Below are positions 13,295-21,554 of a stretch of DNA of 22,943 nt, piece after piece. Where the stretch lies: positions 1 to 22,943 of the IMG/VR virus record IMGVR_UViG_3300042345_000371; one strand, given 5' to 3'. This stretch comes from a virus. The translations under genes and the position numbers were made by a program. The notes under the pieces were generated by a model, which saw only the letters and a list, made by a program, of their open reading frames with translations, was not told the origin of the DNA and searched no databases. Numbering within the stretch: the stretch's first letter is position 1; each line of letters begins with the position of its first letter.

Positions 13295-15475
13295 TTAGAA
13301 TAAAGTTAATGTACTATTTTTTTCTGCAATACAATCTGAATGATTCTTAGCATTAATTTTAAAGTAAGATTCTTTTAATTCGATTGATATACTTTTACGA
13401 TTCATTTTTAAGGCACAAAAACCTTCGCTACCAATACCACCAAAAGGACTTAATACAGTTTCGCCCTCATTTGAGTATAAATGTAATATTCTTTCAATTG
13501 TATCTAACTGTAAAGGGCATATATGTTTTTCGTCATTTCCATCACGTCCTGAGCGATATTGTAAAGTTCTTGAATAATCGATATCATACCAAACTGGAGA
13601 AGCGTATTTTTGCCATAAATCAACTGGCAAATAATCGCTTTTACTTTGGTCTTTATCTTGGTGAGTAATTGGAATTAAATTTTCTCCTTCATTTCTAAAA
13701 AATAGAATGTAATCTGGGATACCTACTCTAGTCATTGAACTATCTTTTTTAATAGTTTTATGAAGTAAACCTAATGCCTTTGTACGTTGCATTTCAGTAA
13801 CAGGATTCTTCCAAATTGTAGCACGTGAATGATAAATGAATCCTTGTTCTTGAAACCATTGAGTTATCATACCGCTGAAATCTCTTAATCCAATATATCC
13901 CTCTTTACCTTTTTGAATTGGTAAATCCATACAATGAATAGCACATATACGACCAGGTTTAAGTGTTCTTTTTAATTCAGGTATTAAGAATTTAAAATGT
14001 TGCTCAAATTGTTTATAATCCGATACATTACCCATGTCCTCTTCTTTATCAGAATATACATATAATTCAGCAAATGGAGGGCTAAATACAACTATATCCG
14101 CACAGTTATCTGCTAGTTTTTTTGTTTCTTGTACACAATCACCATTTAATAAATGATAGTTTTCTGTTTTAATTTCTTTATTATTAATCATAACTTTTGA
14201 TTTATTTGCTTTGTAATCGTTTTCTGCTGAATATTTAGCCATTTCTTTAATCATTTCAAAATGTCTTTGTTGTTTTTCTAAAATAGTTGCACGTACATTT
14301 ATTTGTGATTCAGGAATTAAAATATGAACCGTTACTTTGTTTTTTTGACCAAATCGATAGCATCTTCTTACTGCTTGATAAAATGCTTCAAATTTGAAAT
14401 CGTATGACATAAAAATCATTTGATTACAGTTTTGATAATTCATACCAAATGAAGCTATTGAAGTCTTTGTAATTAATGTTTTAAATTCATTATTTGCAAA
14501 TCCATTTAAATATTTTGCTTTATATTCAGGTTTATCAGAACCTTGTACATTTATAGCGTTATCTAATTTTTTAACAATTAAATCTGTTTCTGAATTTTTC
14601 AATCCCCAAATTAACCATTGATTGTCATTTTGATTAACTAATTCAATTGTTTTTTCAATTCTTAAATCAAATGAACGATTTAAATCTTTATGTAAATCTG
14701 TAGCACTTACTGCAACATCACCGAATAAAGTATTTGTATTATTTTCAACTGGTATAATATGCTCTATAAATTCAATTTCAGGTAAATCATAACCATCATT
14801 ATTAAATCCTAGTGTTTTTGGATTATCGCAAGCCATTGACCATGTAGATACATATTTCCAAAATGGGTCTTTTGCGTGTTTTCTTAATCTCCATTTACTT
14901 GTTTCACCACCATCATGAACAAAGTACATAGCTAACATTTCAAGATAAGACATAGCACCTAAAAACTGGCTATGATTACCTAACTCCATATGATCATTTG
15001 GTGAAGGTGTAGCAGTACAAGCTAACTTATAAGGTGTTCCTTTAAAACTATCAATAATTAATTGGCTCGTTTTACCTGAATTATTTTTAAGAATTGAACT
15101 TTCATCTAATACTACTCCGATATACTTAGAAGTATCAATATTAGATAACTGGTCATAATTTAAAACTTCAATATTTAAGTTACTTATTCCAAACTTTGAA
15201 AACTCTTTTTTAGTTTGCTCAACAACTGCTAATGAAGTAAGTACTAATACATTTCCTTTTGTTTGTTTAACAACTTGTGATGCCCATTCTAATTGCATTA
15301 ATGTTTTACCCAAGCCACAATCAAAAAATAAAGCAAATCTACCTTTACTTAAAGCCGTTTTAACTGCATACTTTTGAAAATCAAATAAGTTTTCATTTAG
15401 TTCATTTTCATCAATATCAAATCCACTTGATATGAATGTTTTTTTCTTAGTTTCTAAAAATTCCTTGTATTGCAT
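13295..15475 (-). CDS. SNF2-type helicase fused to a DNA methyltransferase
   Basis: 726 residues, two enzymes in one chain. Residues ~30-415 are a SNF2/SF2 translocase: motif I DCGLGKT (52-58), motif II LDES (123-126), motif III TATPSPND (154-161) and motif VI QAVRRCYRFGQ (367-377). Residues ~435-726 are an amino-methyltransferase in the beta order: catalytic motif IV FSPPF (464-468) comes first and the AdoMet-binding motif I LSPFGGIGSEGF (675-686) near the C-terminus. S-P-P-F favours N4-cytosine or N6-adenine methylation. Known in other phages as helicase-methylase fusions, likely to protect phage DNA from restriction. No nuclease domain is seen, so not a complete restriction enzyme. Start ATG 15475 carries the shared ATAGAAAT start context. 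Confidence 0.92.
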   Translation of the reverse strand: MQYKEFLETKKKTFISSGFDIDENELNENLFDFQKYAVKTALSKGRFALFFDCGLGKTLMQLEWASQVVKQTKGNVLVLTSLAVVEQTKKEFSKFGISNLNIEVLNYDQLSNIDTSKYIGVVLDESSILKNNSGKTSQLIIDSFKGTPYKLACTATPSPNDHMELGNHSQFLGAMSYLEMLAMYFVHDGGETSKWRLRKHAKDPFWKYVSTWSMACDNPKTLGFNNDGYDLPEIEFIEHIIPVENNTNTLFGDVAVSATDLHKDLNRSFDLRIEKTIELVNQNDNQWLIWGLKNSETDLIVKKLDNAINVQGSDKPEYKAKYLNGFANNEFKTLITKTSIASFGMNYQNCNQMIFMSYDFKFEAFYQAVRRCYRFGQKNKVTVHILIPESQINVRATILEKQQRHFEMIKEMAKYSAENDYKANKSKVMINNKEIKTENYHLLNGDCVQETKKLADNCADIVVFSPPFAELYVYSDKEEDMGNVSDYKQFEQHFKFLIPELKRTLKPGRICAIHCMDLPIQKGKEGYIGLRDFSGMITQWFQEQGFIYHSRATIWKNPVTEMQRTKALGLLHKTIKKDSSMTRVGIPDYILFFRNEGENLIPITHQDKDQSKSDYLPVDLWQKYASPVWYDIDYSRTLQYRSGRDGNDEKHICPLQLDTIERILHLYSNEGETVLSPFGGIGSEGFCALKMNRKSISIELKESYFKINAKNHSDCIAEKNSTLTLF

Positions 15476-19017: not shown

Positions 19018-19494
19018 TTACTTGTTTTTAACTGCTAATGAACTTTTACTAAACGTTACTATCGGAGTTTGCAACACCTCTCCCGTTTGTTCATTAAGCG
19101 AACTAATACCGTTTTTATTATTCTCGTAAACTGATTTATATTTATTCTCAATTTGAACAAGGTTTTCTTTTGCGACTTTCCACTCATCAATATTTTTAAA
19201 ATCGAATTGTTTTCTACCCTCAACACGTGTGAATTGATAAGAGCCTATTTTAAACGTTTTGTCGTACTTTTCTGATTCATTGTAAGCTAATGTATCAATT
19301 TGCTTTTTCGCATCGTTAAAACGCTTCTCTAGTTCTTTAAATACTGCGAACGCTTCTAGGCTTGAAGTAAATCCTAAATCAACGTTTCTTATAACTAAAT
19401 CAATTTGATTTTGAATAACGTTAATTGAATCTGTGGTTAAACTAACACCGTTGTAGTTTTCTTCCATGTACATTTGTTCTTCTCTATTTTGCAT
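19018..19494 (-). CDS. Conserved coiled-coil protein of the recombination module
   Basis: 158 residues. The middle is helical (VFKELEKRFNDAKKQIDTLA), followed by YQFTRVEGRKQFDFKNIDEW and a second helix (AKENLVQIENKYKSVYENNK). The combination of a coiled coil with a short F-x-I-x-x-R-E/V-G-x-K-x-Y/F-x-F-K-x-I-x-x-W beta part recurs in Bacteroidota phages next to ERF and SSB genes. No function is established. Roles in end processing or host nuclease inhibition are guesses. ATG 19494 has the start context AATAGAAATCATG, 18 nt from a degenerate promoter box. Confidence 0.7.
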   Translation of the reverse strand: MQNREEQMYMEENYNGVSLTTDSINVIQNQIDLVIRNVDLGFTSSLEAFAVFKELEKRFNDAKKQIDTLAYNESEKYDKTFKIGSYQFTRVEGRKQFDFKNIDEWKVAKENLVQIENKYKSVYENNKNGISSLNEQTGEVLQTPIVTFSKSSLAVKNK

Positions 19495-19519: not shown

Positions 19520-19577
19520 TTAATTTTTGTTGTATTTGCGTAATTAATGTTCGGTTAGCAGCTAGTTATAACCAATG

Positions 19578-19778
19578 CTACGTTATCGGTTCTTCAAGAA
19601 GTTTATCAGCCATAAGGTCAATATACTTTGTTATTTTTAATTCTGTTAAATGACTATAAGGTAAAACAACTATTTCTTCTTTTTCTTCATAGTTCATTTT
19701 TATTTTAAAACCATTTATTTCTTTACTAAATAATATTTCAATATTCAGTAATATCAAGCTTTCAATTCTATCAAACAT
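19578..19778 (-). CDS. Uncharacterised small protein (cassette gene)
   Basis: 66 residues, MFDRIESLILLNIEILFSKE at the start, acidic with a beta middle (YEEKEEIVVLPYSHL) and a helical end (KYIDLMADKLLEEPIT). The last codons and stop lie in ATAACGTAG, the same heptamer seen at the 3' ends of the ASCH and ERF genes. It begins 3 nt after the methyltransferase stop. No family recognised. Confidence 0.6.
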   Translation of the reverse strand: MFDRIESLILLNIEILFSKEINGFKIKMNYEEKEEIVVLPYSHLTELKITKYIDLMADKLLEEPIT

Positions 19779-19781
19779 ATT

Positions 19782-20453
19782 TTAATTTTTTAAAGTTTGT
19801 AATAAATATTCTCCCCATTGTTTTGCCATTGCTTCCGCTATTCCTGGAAATGTTTTACTTCTCATATTTGAGTTTTTATCTTTTCCATATCCAATATGTG
19901 TTTTTGTCAACCCTGATGCTGAAAAAACTGGTTCAACTATGTTTGTATGTTTTAATTTAGGTAGGTTTTTTAACCATAAACAAGTTGTTTTTCTTTCAGT
20001 ATCTCCAAATTGATAAGGTTGAATTATTTGGTCTGGTTTACGCCATTTTGAACTCATAATTCCGACAGGGTTTTCTATTGAAATACTTGGTATTGGTGCG
20101 TTTGCAAAACTCATAAATAAATCAATTCCTTCTTGTTGTCTGCCATCTGCAATTTTTTCTTTAAACCATCTCGCTCCAGATACTGCTAAATGTGTGCAGG
20201 GTGTAAAACAAATCATTGCGTGATATTTTCCGCTATGCGCTTCTTTTACTGCATCGCCTTGAATGTGCCATTCTGGGTGTCCGCCACTACAAGGCATTAA
20301 ATCACAACTAAAAGCATTAAAACCTAATTTGCGTAATTCAATAGTTACTGCCTGGCTTTCTTCACAAGCAACTAAAATATTAATATCCGCACTGGTTATA
20401 ACACTCGTTTTGTGCAATGGCGGAGTTTGGTCTAAATTTAATGTTTCTTGCAT
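19782..20453 (-). CDS. Cytosine-C5 DNA methyltransferase-like protein
   Basis: 223 residues, short for a C5 methyltransferase (usually >300). Residues 26-50 (ILVACEESQAVTIELRKLGF, then SCDL) form an AdoMet-pocket-like strand and acidic end. The catalytic motif appears as F-T-P-C-T-H-L with Pro85-Cys86. Residues 125-130 (SIENPVG) carry the E-N-P of motif VI. A C-terminal GYGKDKNSNMRSKTFPGIAE lies before the last helix. The missing target-recognition region suggests a minimal enzyme or a relative with a different target. It would modify phage DNA against restriction, acting beside the helicase-methyltransferase. The first ~24 residues may be a non-conserved extension. It lies between attC-like site 20498-20529 and the site at 19580. 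Confidence 0.7.
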   Translation of the reverse strand: MQETLNLDQTPPLHKTSVITSADINILVACEESQAVTIELRKLGFNAFSCDLMPCSGGHPEWHIQGDAVKEAHSGKYHAMICFTPCTHLAVSGARWFKEKIADGRQQEGIDLFMSFANAPIPSISIENPVGIMSSKWRKPDQIIQPYQFGDTERKTTCLWLKNLPKLKHTNIVEPVFSASGLTKTHIGYGKDKNSNMRSKTFPGIAEAMAKQWGEYLLQTLKN

Positions 20454-20497
20454 TTTTGTATGTTTAGTAATTAATCGGAAAGTCAGTCTTTTTTAAA

Positions 20498-20529
20498 CCG
20501 CCACTGACACAAAGCGAGGGAACGTTATA
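20498..20529 (-). repeat. attC-like half element after the ASCH gene
   Basis: Minus strand TATAACGTT (20529-20521), then 15-16 nt, then GTGGCGG (20504-20498). It has the same ends and spacing as the left half of the complete element at 20985-21060. The ASCH stop codon (20527-20525) lies inside TATAACG. The matching second arm is not evident; only a 6-bp hairpin (20482-20487 with 20503-20508) is seen. Read as a degenerate copy. Confidence 0.4.
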
Positions 20530-20950
20530 AGAGATTTGACGTACTAACTATCTGACCTAAATTTATTACAAAATATTCTACATTTGATTCTGCTCCCCAT
20601 TCTGTATTGCCTTTTGAAATTTCAATTCCTTTACATTCGATTGTTAGTTTTGGAACTTTATTTCCATAACCATTTGAAAACTCTATTAAGTCGTAGTTTT
20701 TAAACGAACAATCTAAACATTTAATCATGTGTTTAATTGCTAAATTACGTTTACCCTTATATCCAATACTATAATTAAATAATGAACATACACCATTTCC
20801 ATTCAGTTGATAACGAATATTGTTTAATTTATCTATTTTAATAAATCGACTAACAAAGAAATCTTTTATCTCTCTATACTCCTCTTTCTTTTCGCCTGAT
20901 AAAATCATATCAAACCATTTCTTTTTTAATGTTAATTTTAATATTTCCAT
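20525..20950 (-). CDS. ASCH-domain (PUA-like) protein in a cassette-like setting
   Basis: 141 residues. N-terminal ILKLTLKKKWFDMILSGEKK then EEYREIKDFF is the ASCH signature (strand, then F-x-x-I-x-S-G-x-K-x-x-E-x-R). The rest is beta-rich and ends VEYFVINLGQIV, as expected of the PUA-like barrel. ASCH proteins bind RNA or modified nucleosides; some are nucleases or amidohydrolases. Phages carry many of unknown role. The gene stands alone between two attC-like elements and its stop lies inside the second. This looks like a unit acquired separately from the surrounding genes. Confidence 0.75.
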   Translation of the reverse strand: MEILKLTLKKKWFDMILSGEKKEEYREIKDFFVSRFIKIDKLNNIRYQLNGNGVCSLFNYSIGYKGKRNLAIKHMIKCLDCSFKNYDLIEFSNGYGNKVPKLTIECKGIEISKGNTEWGAESNVEYFVINLGQIVSTSNLL

Positions 20951-20984
20951 TTGAATTAATATTTATGTATGAAATAAAACCTCT

Positions 20985-21060
20985 TATAACAGGTGTTTGT
21001 CTATATGGCGGAAACGTACACATCGCTTACCGCCACATCGTCAAGCACCAAAACGTTATA
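20985..21060 (-). repeat. attC-like imperfect palindrome between ERF and ASCH genes
   Basis: 76-bp element. Ends are TATAAC and GTTATA (21060-21055 and 20990-20985). Inner arms of 20 nt (21030-21049 with 20992-21011) pair over 16 Watson-Crick pairs and one G-T, with three mismatches. The central loop is 18 nt. This resembles integron attC sites: AAC/GTT ends, long imperfect stem, asymmetric internal loops, position right after a stop codon. GC content is clearly above the flanks. Function is inference. Confidence 0.55.
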
Positions 21061-21065
21061 TGCCA

Positions 21066-21554
21066 TTACAATAACATCAATGATTTATTCTGTAATTCAG
21101 TTAATTCAAAAGTTGCTTTAAGTTTCTCAACTGTGTAACTTCCGTCTTTGATTTTTTCTAATGCTTTCTCAAATCTAGTGTTATCAATAGTTTCTTTGCG
21201 TTGTGGCTGACTTGCTAACTGCCCGTCGTCGTCTTGTGCTTGCATTGATAGTAAACTTTGTAAAGTGTAACGTCTAAAGTAAGTAATAGCGCTCCCCATT
21301 GACTGCGGTGTCCCTCCTATTGGTAAATCAATAAAAGATTCAATCATTTCTTTACTTTCAGCATCTACAATTCTAGTGTACACCTTGCCGTTTTCTATTG
21401 GTTGTAATAGCACTAAACCTTTTGATAATAAAATACCCTCAACTGTTTCAATTAATGCGTTAATATCGACGTATTTGTTTTTGAAATGTGGATTAGTAGC
21501 GTTCTTTGTCGCTTTACCAATCTCTTTTTTGGCTTCTAAAATTTTCTTATACAT
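21066..21554 (-). CDS. erf: ERF-family single-strand annealing recombinase
   Basis: 162 residues from ATG 21554 (MYKKILEAKKEIGKATKNAT). The TTG at 21578 is rejected because the promoter box overlaps it. The ERF core is clear: NPHFKNKYVDINALIETVEG (N-P-x-F-K-N-K-Y), GLVLLQPIENGKVYTRIVD, MIESFIDLPIGGTPQSMGSA, ITYFRRYTLQSLLSMQAQDD and D-G. The Y-x-x-R-Y and D-D-D-G blocks are diagnostic. ERF proteins anneal complementary ssDNA in phage recombination, with SSB, and here probably with NinG as downstream nuclease. It is first in its operon, right after a promoter box. Very confident. Confidence 0.92.
   Translation of the reverse strand: MYKKILEAKKEIGKATKNATNPHFKNKYVDINALIETVEGILLSKGLVLLQPIENGKVYTRIVDAESKEMIESFIDLPIGGTPQSMGSAITYFRRYTLQSLLSMQAQDDDGQLASQPQRKETIDNTRFEKALEKIKDGSYTVEKLKATFELTELQNKSLMLL

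Follow-up and report, generated by a model that had tools for sequence, protein, structure and literature searches.

A two-cassette array with attC-like hairpins in a viral genome: a probable phage-adapted variant of the integron

The window, a stretch of 22,943 nucleotides covering positions 1 to 22,943 of the virus record IMGVR_UViG_3300042345_000371, carries at 19565-21061 what is probably an array of two cassettes belonging to a phage-adapted variant of the integron, in a phage of Bacteroidota whose recombinase would be supplied in trans. Each cassette would comprise an attC-like hairpin, presumably folded from a single strand, and then a gene. Crossover would take place in the TAA/C box at the hairpin's outer end, the one with the 5-nt spacer, and the single box at 19565-19568 would act as an attI-like receptor at the array end. 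The most likely mover is a tyrosine recombinase from an insert-less clade that is sister to IntI and is found beside arrays elsewhere, in other phages and in some Bacteroidota chromosomes. Cassette behaviour is borne out by comparison of sequences, through the hairpins and their covariation, box-exact junctions, variability of the locus, polarity, and the linkage of a recombinase and an attI-like site to arrays in relatives.

Both hairpins lie on the minus strand. Element 1 (20984-21061, 78 nt) stands at the 5' end of the ASCH-like gene cassette and folds into a stem of 20-nt arms with 16 Watson-Crick pairs and one G-T pair, an asymmetric outer loop, with GTTTT (5 nt) on one side and a single T on the other, and a centre of 18 nt; the fold has a z-score of -4.1, and none of 200 shuffles folded equally well. 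The initial annotation had assigned an attC-like architecture to 20985-21060, and the arms, loop and centre are all as it described. It took the second site for a shorter copy with the same spacing. Folding of 20380-20545 instead gave a complete 135-nt element 2 (20396-20530), with a 21/20-nt stem, a single bulged T and a long centre that holds the methyltransferase ATG, and the spacing from TATAACGTT to GTGGCGG is 16 rather than 15. Each element has a 5-nt spacer at one end, here called left, and 1 nt at the other, here called right. A structural scan for a stem-loop enclosed by a TAAC box and a GTTA box, with 3-7 nt between the TAAC box and the stem and 0-7 nt between the stem and the GTTA box, placed elements 1 and 2 in the top two ranks of the window, with scores of 57.5 and 57.0, the best score among 200 dinucleotide shuffles, scanned with narrower 4-6 and 0-2 nt spacers, being 47.5. 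The bare heptamer ATAACGT, previously used to mark the sites, proved weak evidence by itself: it occurs nine times in the window against 4.5 expected, and four of 100 shuffles reached nine. At 78 and 135 nt both elements lie within the 57-141 bp described for the attC palindrome between inverse core and core boxes (PMC3053210). The AAC and GTT cores are present and the strict RYYYAAC / GTTRRRY 7-mers match at only 5-6 of 7 positions, while the paired extrahelical bulged bases of IntI-type attC are absent from both elements. An Rfam search returned nothing relevant.

The genes of the array are also on the minus strand, between two fixed borders on that strand, an ERF recombination gene upstream (21066-21554) and the gene of a 158-aa protein downstream (19018-19494). 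Cassette 1 carries the ASCH-like gene (20525-20950), a weak assignment with a Pfam E-value of 0.028, below the cut-off, and membership of PHROG 625, of unknown function; its stop falls within the left box of element 2. Cassette 2 carries a DNA methyltransferase (19782-20453; PHROG 757) and, as its second gene, a 66-aa protein of unknown function (19578-19778). This is the division into two units already proposed from the sequence, ASCH-like alone and methyltransferase plus small protein. At 19545-19590 of the same strand follows a cassette tail (GTAGCATTGG) with a single box, TTATAAC at 19565-19571 (TAAC at 19565-19568). The tail motif of the family stands in front of this putative attI-like array end, which is kept in relatives.

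We built a covariance model, R1, from 36 diverse elements of other phage contigs, leaving the window out. RNAalifold on the 36 aligned elements predicted 21 pairs; double compensatory changes occur in 14 of these, and C.A and G.U mismatches stand where IntI-type attC has bulges. In the window R1 found exactly two sites, element 2 (48.8 bits, E = 6.9e-9) and element 1 (48.2 bits, E = 9.3e-9). With R1 as the model the window answers to the definition of a CALIN, having at least two attC hits near each other and no recombinase in the record. Since a strict two-arm pattern matched only one viral and six genome stretches, a relaxed left-arm pattern was adopted; it matched at least 120 viral stretches and is present in 21 of 395 genomes sampled from the phylum of a Flavobacteriales genome, where the reversed pattern gave no match. 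This kind of cassette array is widespread in viruses of Bacteroidota. A DNA search for element 2 among named phages gave no match. Viral and chromosomal arrays alike have a tail motif, ATTGC-NNN, in the left flank ahead of the box. Two Flavobacteriales genomes have an element of the element-1 type (L003:2200-2277 and L006:167-244) adjoining the same gene (ATGACAGACAAG.., which we take to be DUF1810-like), and the genes on the opposite side differ.

Relatives of the window phage were retrieved through the flanking ERF and 158-aa genes, and the interval between these genes was found to be variable or empty. In L555, L559 and L561-L564, TAACTAGCTGATAGGCGTAACTAATTACGC stands in front of the 158-aa gene; to its left the distinct arrays differ, holding small genes of other kinds, between one and four elements, or what appears to be a methyltransferase (the array end is the same in L561 and L562). 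The array is absent from L558, L565 and L566, where the 158-aa gene comes directly after the ERF stop. Junctions between the differing arrays fall at the boxes. The window has ..GTAGCATTGG-TTATAAC-TAGCTGC at the corresponding place before the 158-aa gene, and the third site of the initial annotation is therefore the array end. A third attC at 19580-19586 was rejected, as there is no stem; two of the three proposed sites stand as attC-like hairpins, and the remaining one is better described as attI-like. Element 2 also has a counterpart of about 92% identity in L244, an unrelated phage whose terminase is of another type, with similarity ending near both boxes. There a leader, MQxTLNLxQTPPLHKTSV, which is also that of element 2, is fused to another C5 methyltransferase. 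The same element preceding a different gene, together with relatives that carry other genes or no array, upholds the earlier suggestion of cassette-type exchange at the attC-like elements.

The polarity of these cassettes is unusual. In viral loci, same-strand gene ends lie at the left edge of 267 of 314 elements, with 4 the other way. Chromosomal arrays are long and co-oriented, with about one gene per element, and in 51 of 61 elements it is the right edge that meets the end of an opposite-strand gene, with no case the other way. Arrays next to canonical IntI have the 5/1 geometry too, and there the right edge is again where genes end (35 against 7, the seven exceptions being mostly sites of this set seen from the opposite strand). 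By this comparison the chromosomal arrays are canonical and the phage arrays reversed. Among near-identical elements in different places, 25 viral and 3 chromosomal pairs, which are not independent, conserve only the right flank, and no pair conserves only the left; identity between them starts at the TAAC box. Conservation of the right flank only indicates that the mobile unit is the element plus what lies to its right. As judged from these comparisons the mobile unit in phages, across about 110 viral contigs, is the attC-like hairpin plus the downstream gene, the reverse of chromosomal arrays of the same family and of ordinary integron cassettes, in which the site is 3' of its gene. The hairpin travels with the gene downstream, so that cassette polarity is reversed relative to ordinary integrons, and the arrangement implied by the initial annotation, a hairpin at the 3' end of its own gene, has to be given up.

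As it sits upstream of the gene, the hairpin would double as a translation start, its loop supplying the ATG and its inner arm coding for a leader peptide. Of 195 long viral elements, 109 contain the start of an open reading frame, 50 codons or longer, that continues across the right arm, compared with 6 of 202 on the other strand and 3 of 45 in chromosomal arrays. One leader (e.g. MSNEEQNGFFAKPVL..) precedes many unrelated genes. In the window, roughly the first 20 codons of the methyltransferase are element 2 sequence and homology begins at residue 22-26 in most relatives, a late start that is consistent with an attC-encoded leader.

No integron integrase had been seen in the window, and a recombinase is indeed absent from the record, as it is from the roughly 32-kb relatives; the link to an enzyme therefore rests on analogy with other phages, and with only the array present any recombinase would act in trans. 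In one such phage, L123, four elements are accompanied by a 268-aa tyrosine recombinase just downstream. Homologues of it adjoin arrays in ten other phage loci and lie near chromosomal arrays in G060, G378 (with the frame split) and G019. We then took the recombinase as the starting point and retrieved 80 viral loci by it: elements lay upstream in 56 of the 65 contigs with enough upstream sequence and downstream in 1 of 79, and the upstream elements were in one orientation in 173 cases and in the other in one. In 66 of 73 loci, with 3.9 expected, a box, TAAC-TACTATATGTA, stands at a distance of 45-107 nt ahead of the recombinase match. Its T at position -7 is invariant, and where two loci resemble each other to the right of the box (61 pairs), the sequences to its left are unrelated in 59. 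By these comparisons the box before the recombinase behaves as attI. An attI-like site beside a recombinase is seen in these relatives; the window shows the array-end box and no recombinase.

The array-linked recombinases keep all catalytic residues and lack the IntI-specific insert. They score under the TIGR02249 cut-off and carry a Phage_integrase domain, and the IntI with additional domain that defines a complete integron is not found in the window. In a tree with few Xer outgroups, its sequences picked partly by IntI similarity, they group with IntI and apart from Bacteroidota XerC/XerD. By profile they are nearest to archaeal XerA (NCBIfam NF040815; PDB 4a8e, 5hxy), the closest family and structures by sequence. 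The task of Xer enzymes is the resolution of chromosome dimers; the array-linked recombinases, in contrast, adjoin cassette arrays. In the structure of VchIntIA with a VCR site the insert region holds residues that contact the bulged attC bases (PMC3053210), and in our reading of the alignment this bulge-contact region corresponds to the insert missing here. The earlier hedge that the elements might belong to another mobile hairpin family was partly right, in that the linked recombinase of relatives is not a canonical IntI. In G378 (L347:945-1870), where the chromosomal array has 12 elements, the frame split divides the adjoining recombinase between two frames, and it is possibly a pseudogene. 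G019 (L352, L362) has a canonical IntI and an insert-less recombinase in one genome, the latter about 1 kb from an element. An integron-like locus also occurs in a CPR bacterium: a Candidatus Peribacteria contig (L008:1968-7193) holds three attC-like elements and an insert-less tyrosine recombinase that falls with IntI in the tree.

Isolates of one cultured phage, Freya, differ by whole units at such boxes. The Polaribacter phages Freya_1 to _10 (PMC8776804) encode a relative of the array-linked recombinase at about 35% identity (33-35% for the integrases of Freya, Leef and Ingeline), and have boxes and variable units upstream of it. Compared with Freya_10, 3198 bp are missing from Freya_5 and 307 bp from Freya_9, while Freya_6 carries another unit, of 469 bp, in each case with ends at ..AAC boxes before the recombinase. 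Similar differences occur in Freya_1, _2 and _8, where, however, the junction falls at the ends of the records, so that internal junctions are confined to Freya_5, _6 and _9. R1 did not match the Freya hairpins, which are divergent, and their fold z-scores were not significant. Several of the 'circular' records (MT732463-MT732472) begin or end at, or a few bases from, a cassette box, as if assembly had broken at the variable array.

The chief alternative, which we hold to be unlikely, is that the window is a classical CALIN whose ordinary attC sites are moved by a canonical IntI of the host, the phage being passive and the insert-less recombinase having another role. CALINs, clusters of attC without integrase, are described in virulent phages in the main text of PMC9892861, among them Polaribacter phage P12002L with methyltransferase cassettes and divergent attC directions. 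The window resembles them in its attC clusters without integrase and in its methyltransferase cargo, and R1 matches P12002L beside its methyltransferases (33.7 and 31.0 bits). According to the same text, by Qi et al., IntI1 recombined one of two tested attC sites of this phage. A canonical IntI over the cut-off is present in 105 of the 395 sampled genomes, and the 5-nt/1-nt geometry is common to IntI-linked attC. However, only one of 18 element-bearing genomes has a canonical IntI, R1 matches arrays linked to canonical IntI weakly (best E 0.02), and it is the insert-less recombinase and its attI-like box that are tightly and directionally linked to the arrays. That this recombinase is a lysogeny integrase, its box an attP, the array a mere neighbour and the cassettes changed by other means seems very improbable to us. 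The integrases of Freya, Leef and Ingeline have been read as lysogeny integrases, with no mention of cassettes (PMC8776804), and the Phage_integrase domain agrees with that reading; yet the box is common to every cassette boundary, the arrays lie on one side and in one orientation, homologues adjoin chromosomal arrays too, and the Freya isolates differ by whole units exactly at the box.

Least credible of all, in our judgement, are hairpins that serve as terminators or mRNA structures, with turnover by homologous recombination between similar repeats. The elements do stand at gene ends, similar repeats are able to recombine, and the phage encodes an adjacent ERF. Against this, junctions lie in the outer box and not in mid-repeat, conservation of the left side only was never seen, the attI-like site shows the same junction with no hairpin at all, and element polarity differs between phages and chromosomes. 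On junctions and polarity the terminator reading was rejected.

The preferred reading, a phage-adapted cassette array served by an insert-less recombinase, has a broader form, which we favour with some reserve: Bacteroidota phages may carry an integron class of their own, made up of a short attI, a recombinase that is sister to IntI but has no insert, and inverted cassettes with a 5' attC whose hairpin loop encodes the start codon and leader peptide of the cargo gene, the loss of the insert going with the loss of paired bulges. Such a class would resemble IntI integrons, both class 1 and sedentary chromosomal, in its three-part layout, box-exact insertion beside the recombinase, hairpins of about 120 nt and 5-nt/1-nt spacer geometry. 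It would differ from them in a phage recombinase without the IntI insert, elements without the bulge pair, and reversed gene polarity. In the main text of PMC9892861 we found no attC-first cassettes with loop start codons, and for Bacteroidota phages no phage-encoded insert-less recombinase and no attI-like site; nor did our literature search of open-access texts find this attC-first phage variant.

If this reading is correct, phages run a dedicated platform for cassette exchange that is rich in DNA-modification genes. Among 121 sampled cassette proteins, about 45 match DNA-methyltransferase families (among them N6_N4_Mtase 26, C-5 DNA_methylase 10, MT-A70 5 and Dam 2), and matches to Mom, D12, EcoRI_methylase and Tad2-like proteins occur once each. 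The cargo is often DNA-modifying and probably helps the phage against host defence. The system would also offer a relative of the integron without the IntI-specific domain for comparison with IntI, and arrays of opposite gene polarity within one site family bear on how cassettes form. On this view, too, some of the phage 'integrases' from which lysogeny has been deduced may in fact be cassette recombinases. Outside the array, the window has a second methyltransferase, an N6_N4 methylase fused to a helicase in a 726-aa protein (13295-15475).
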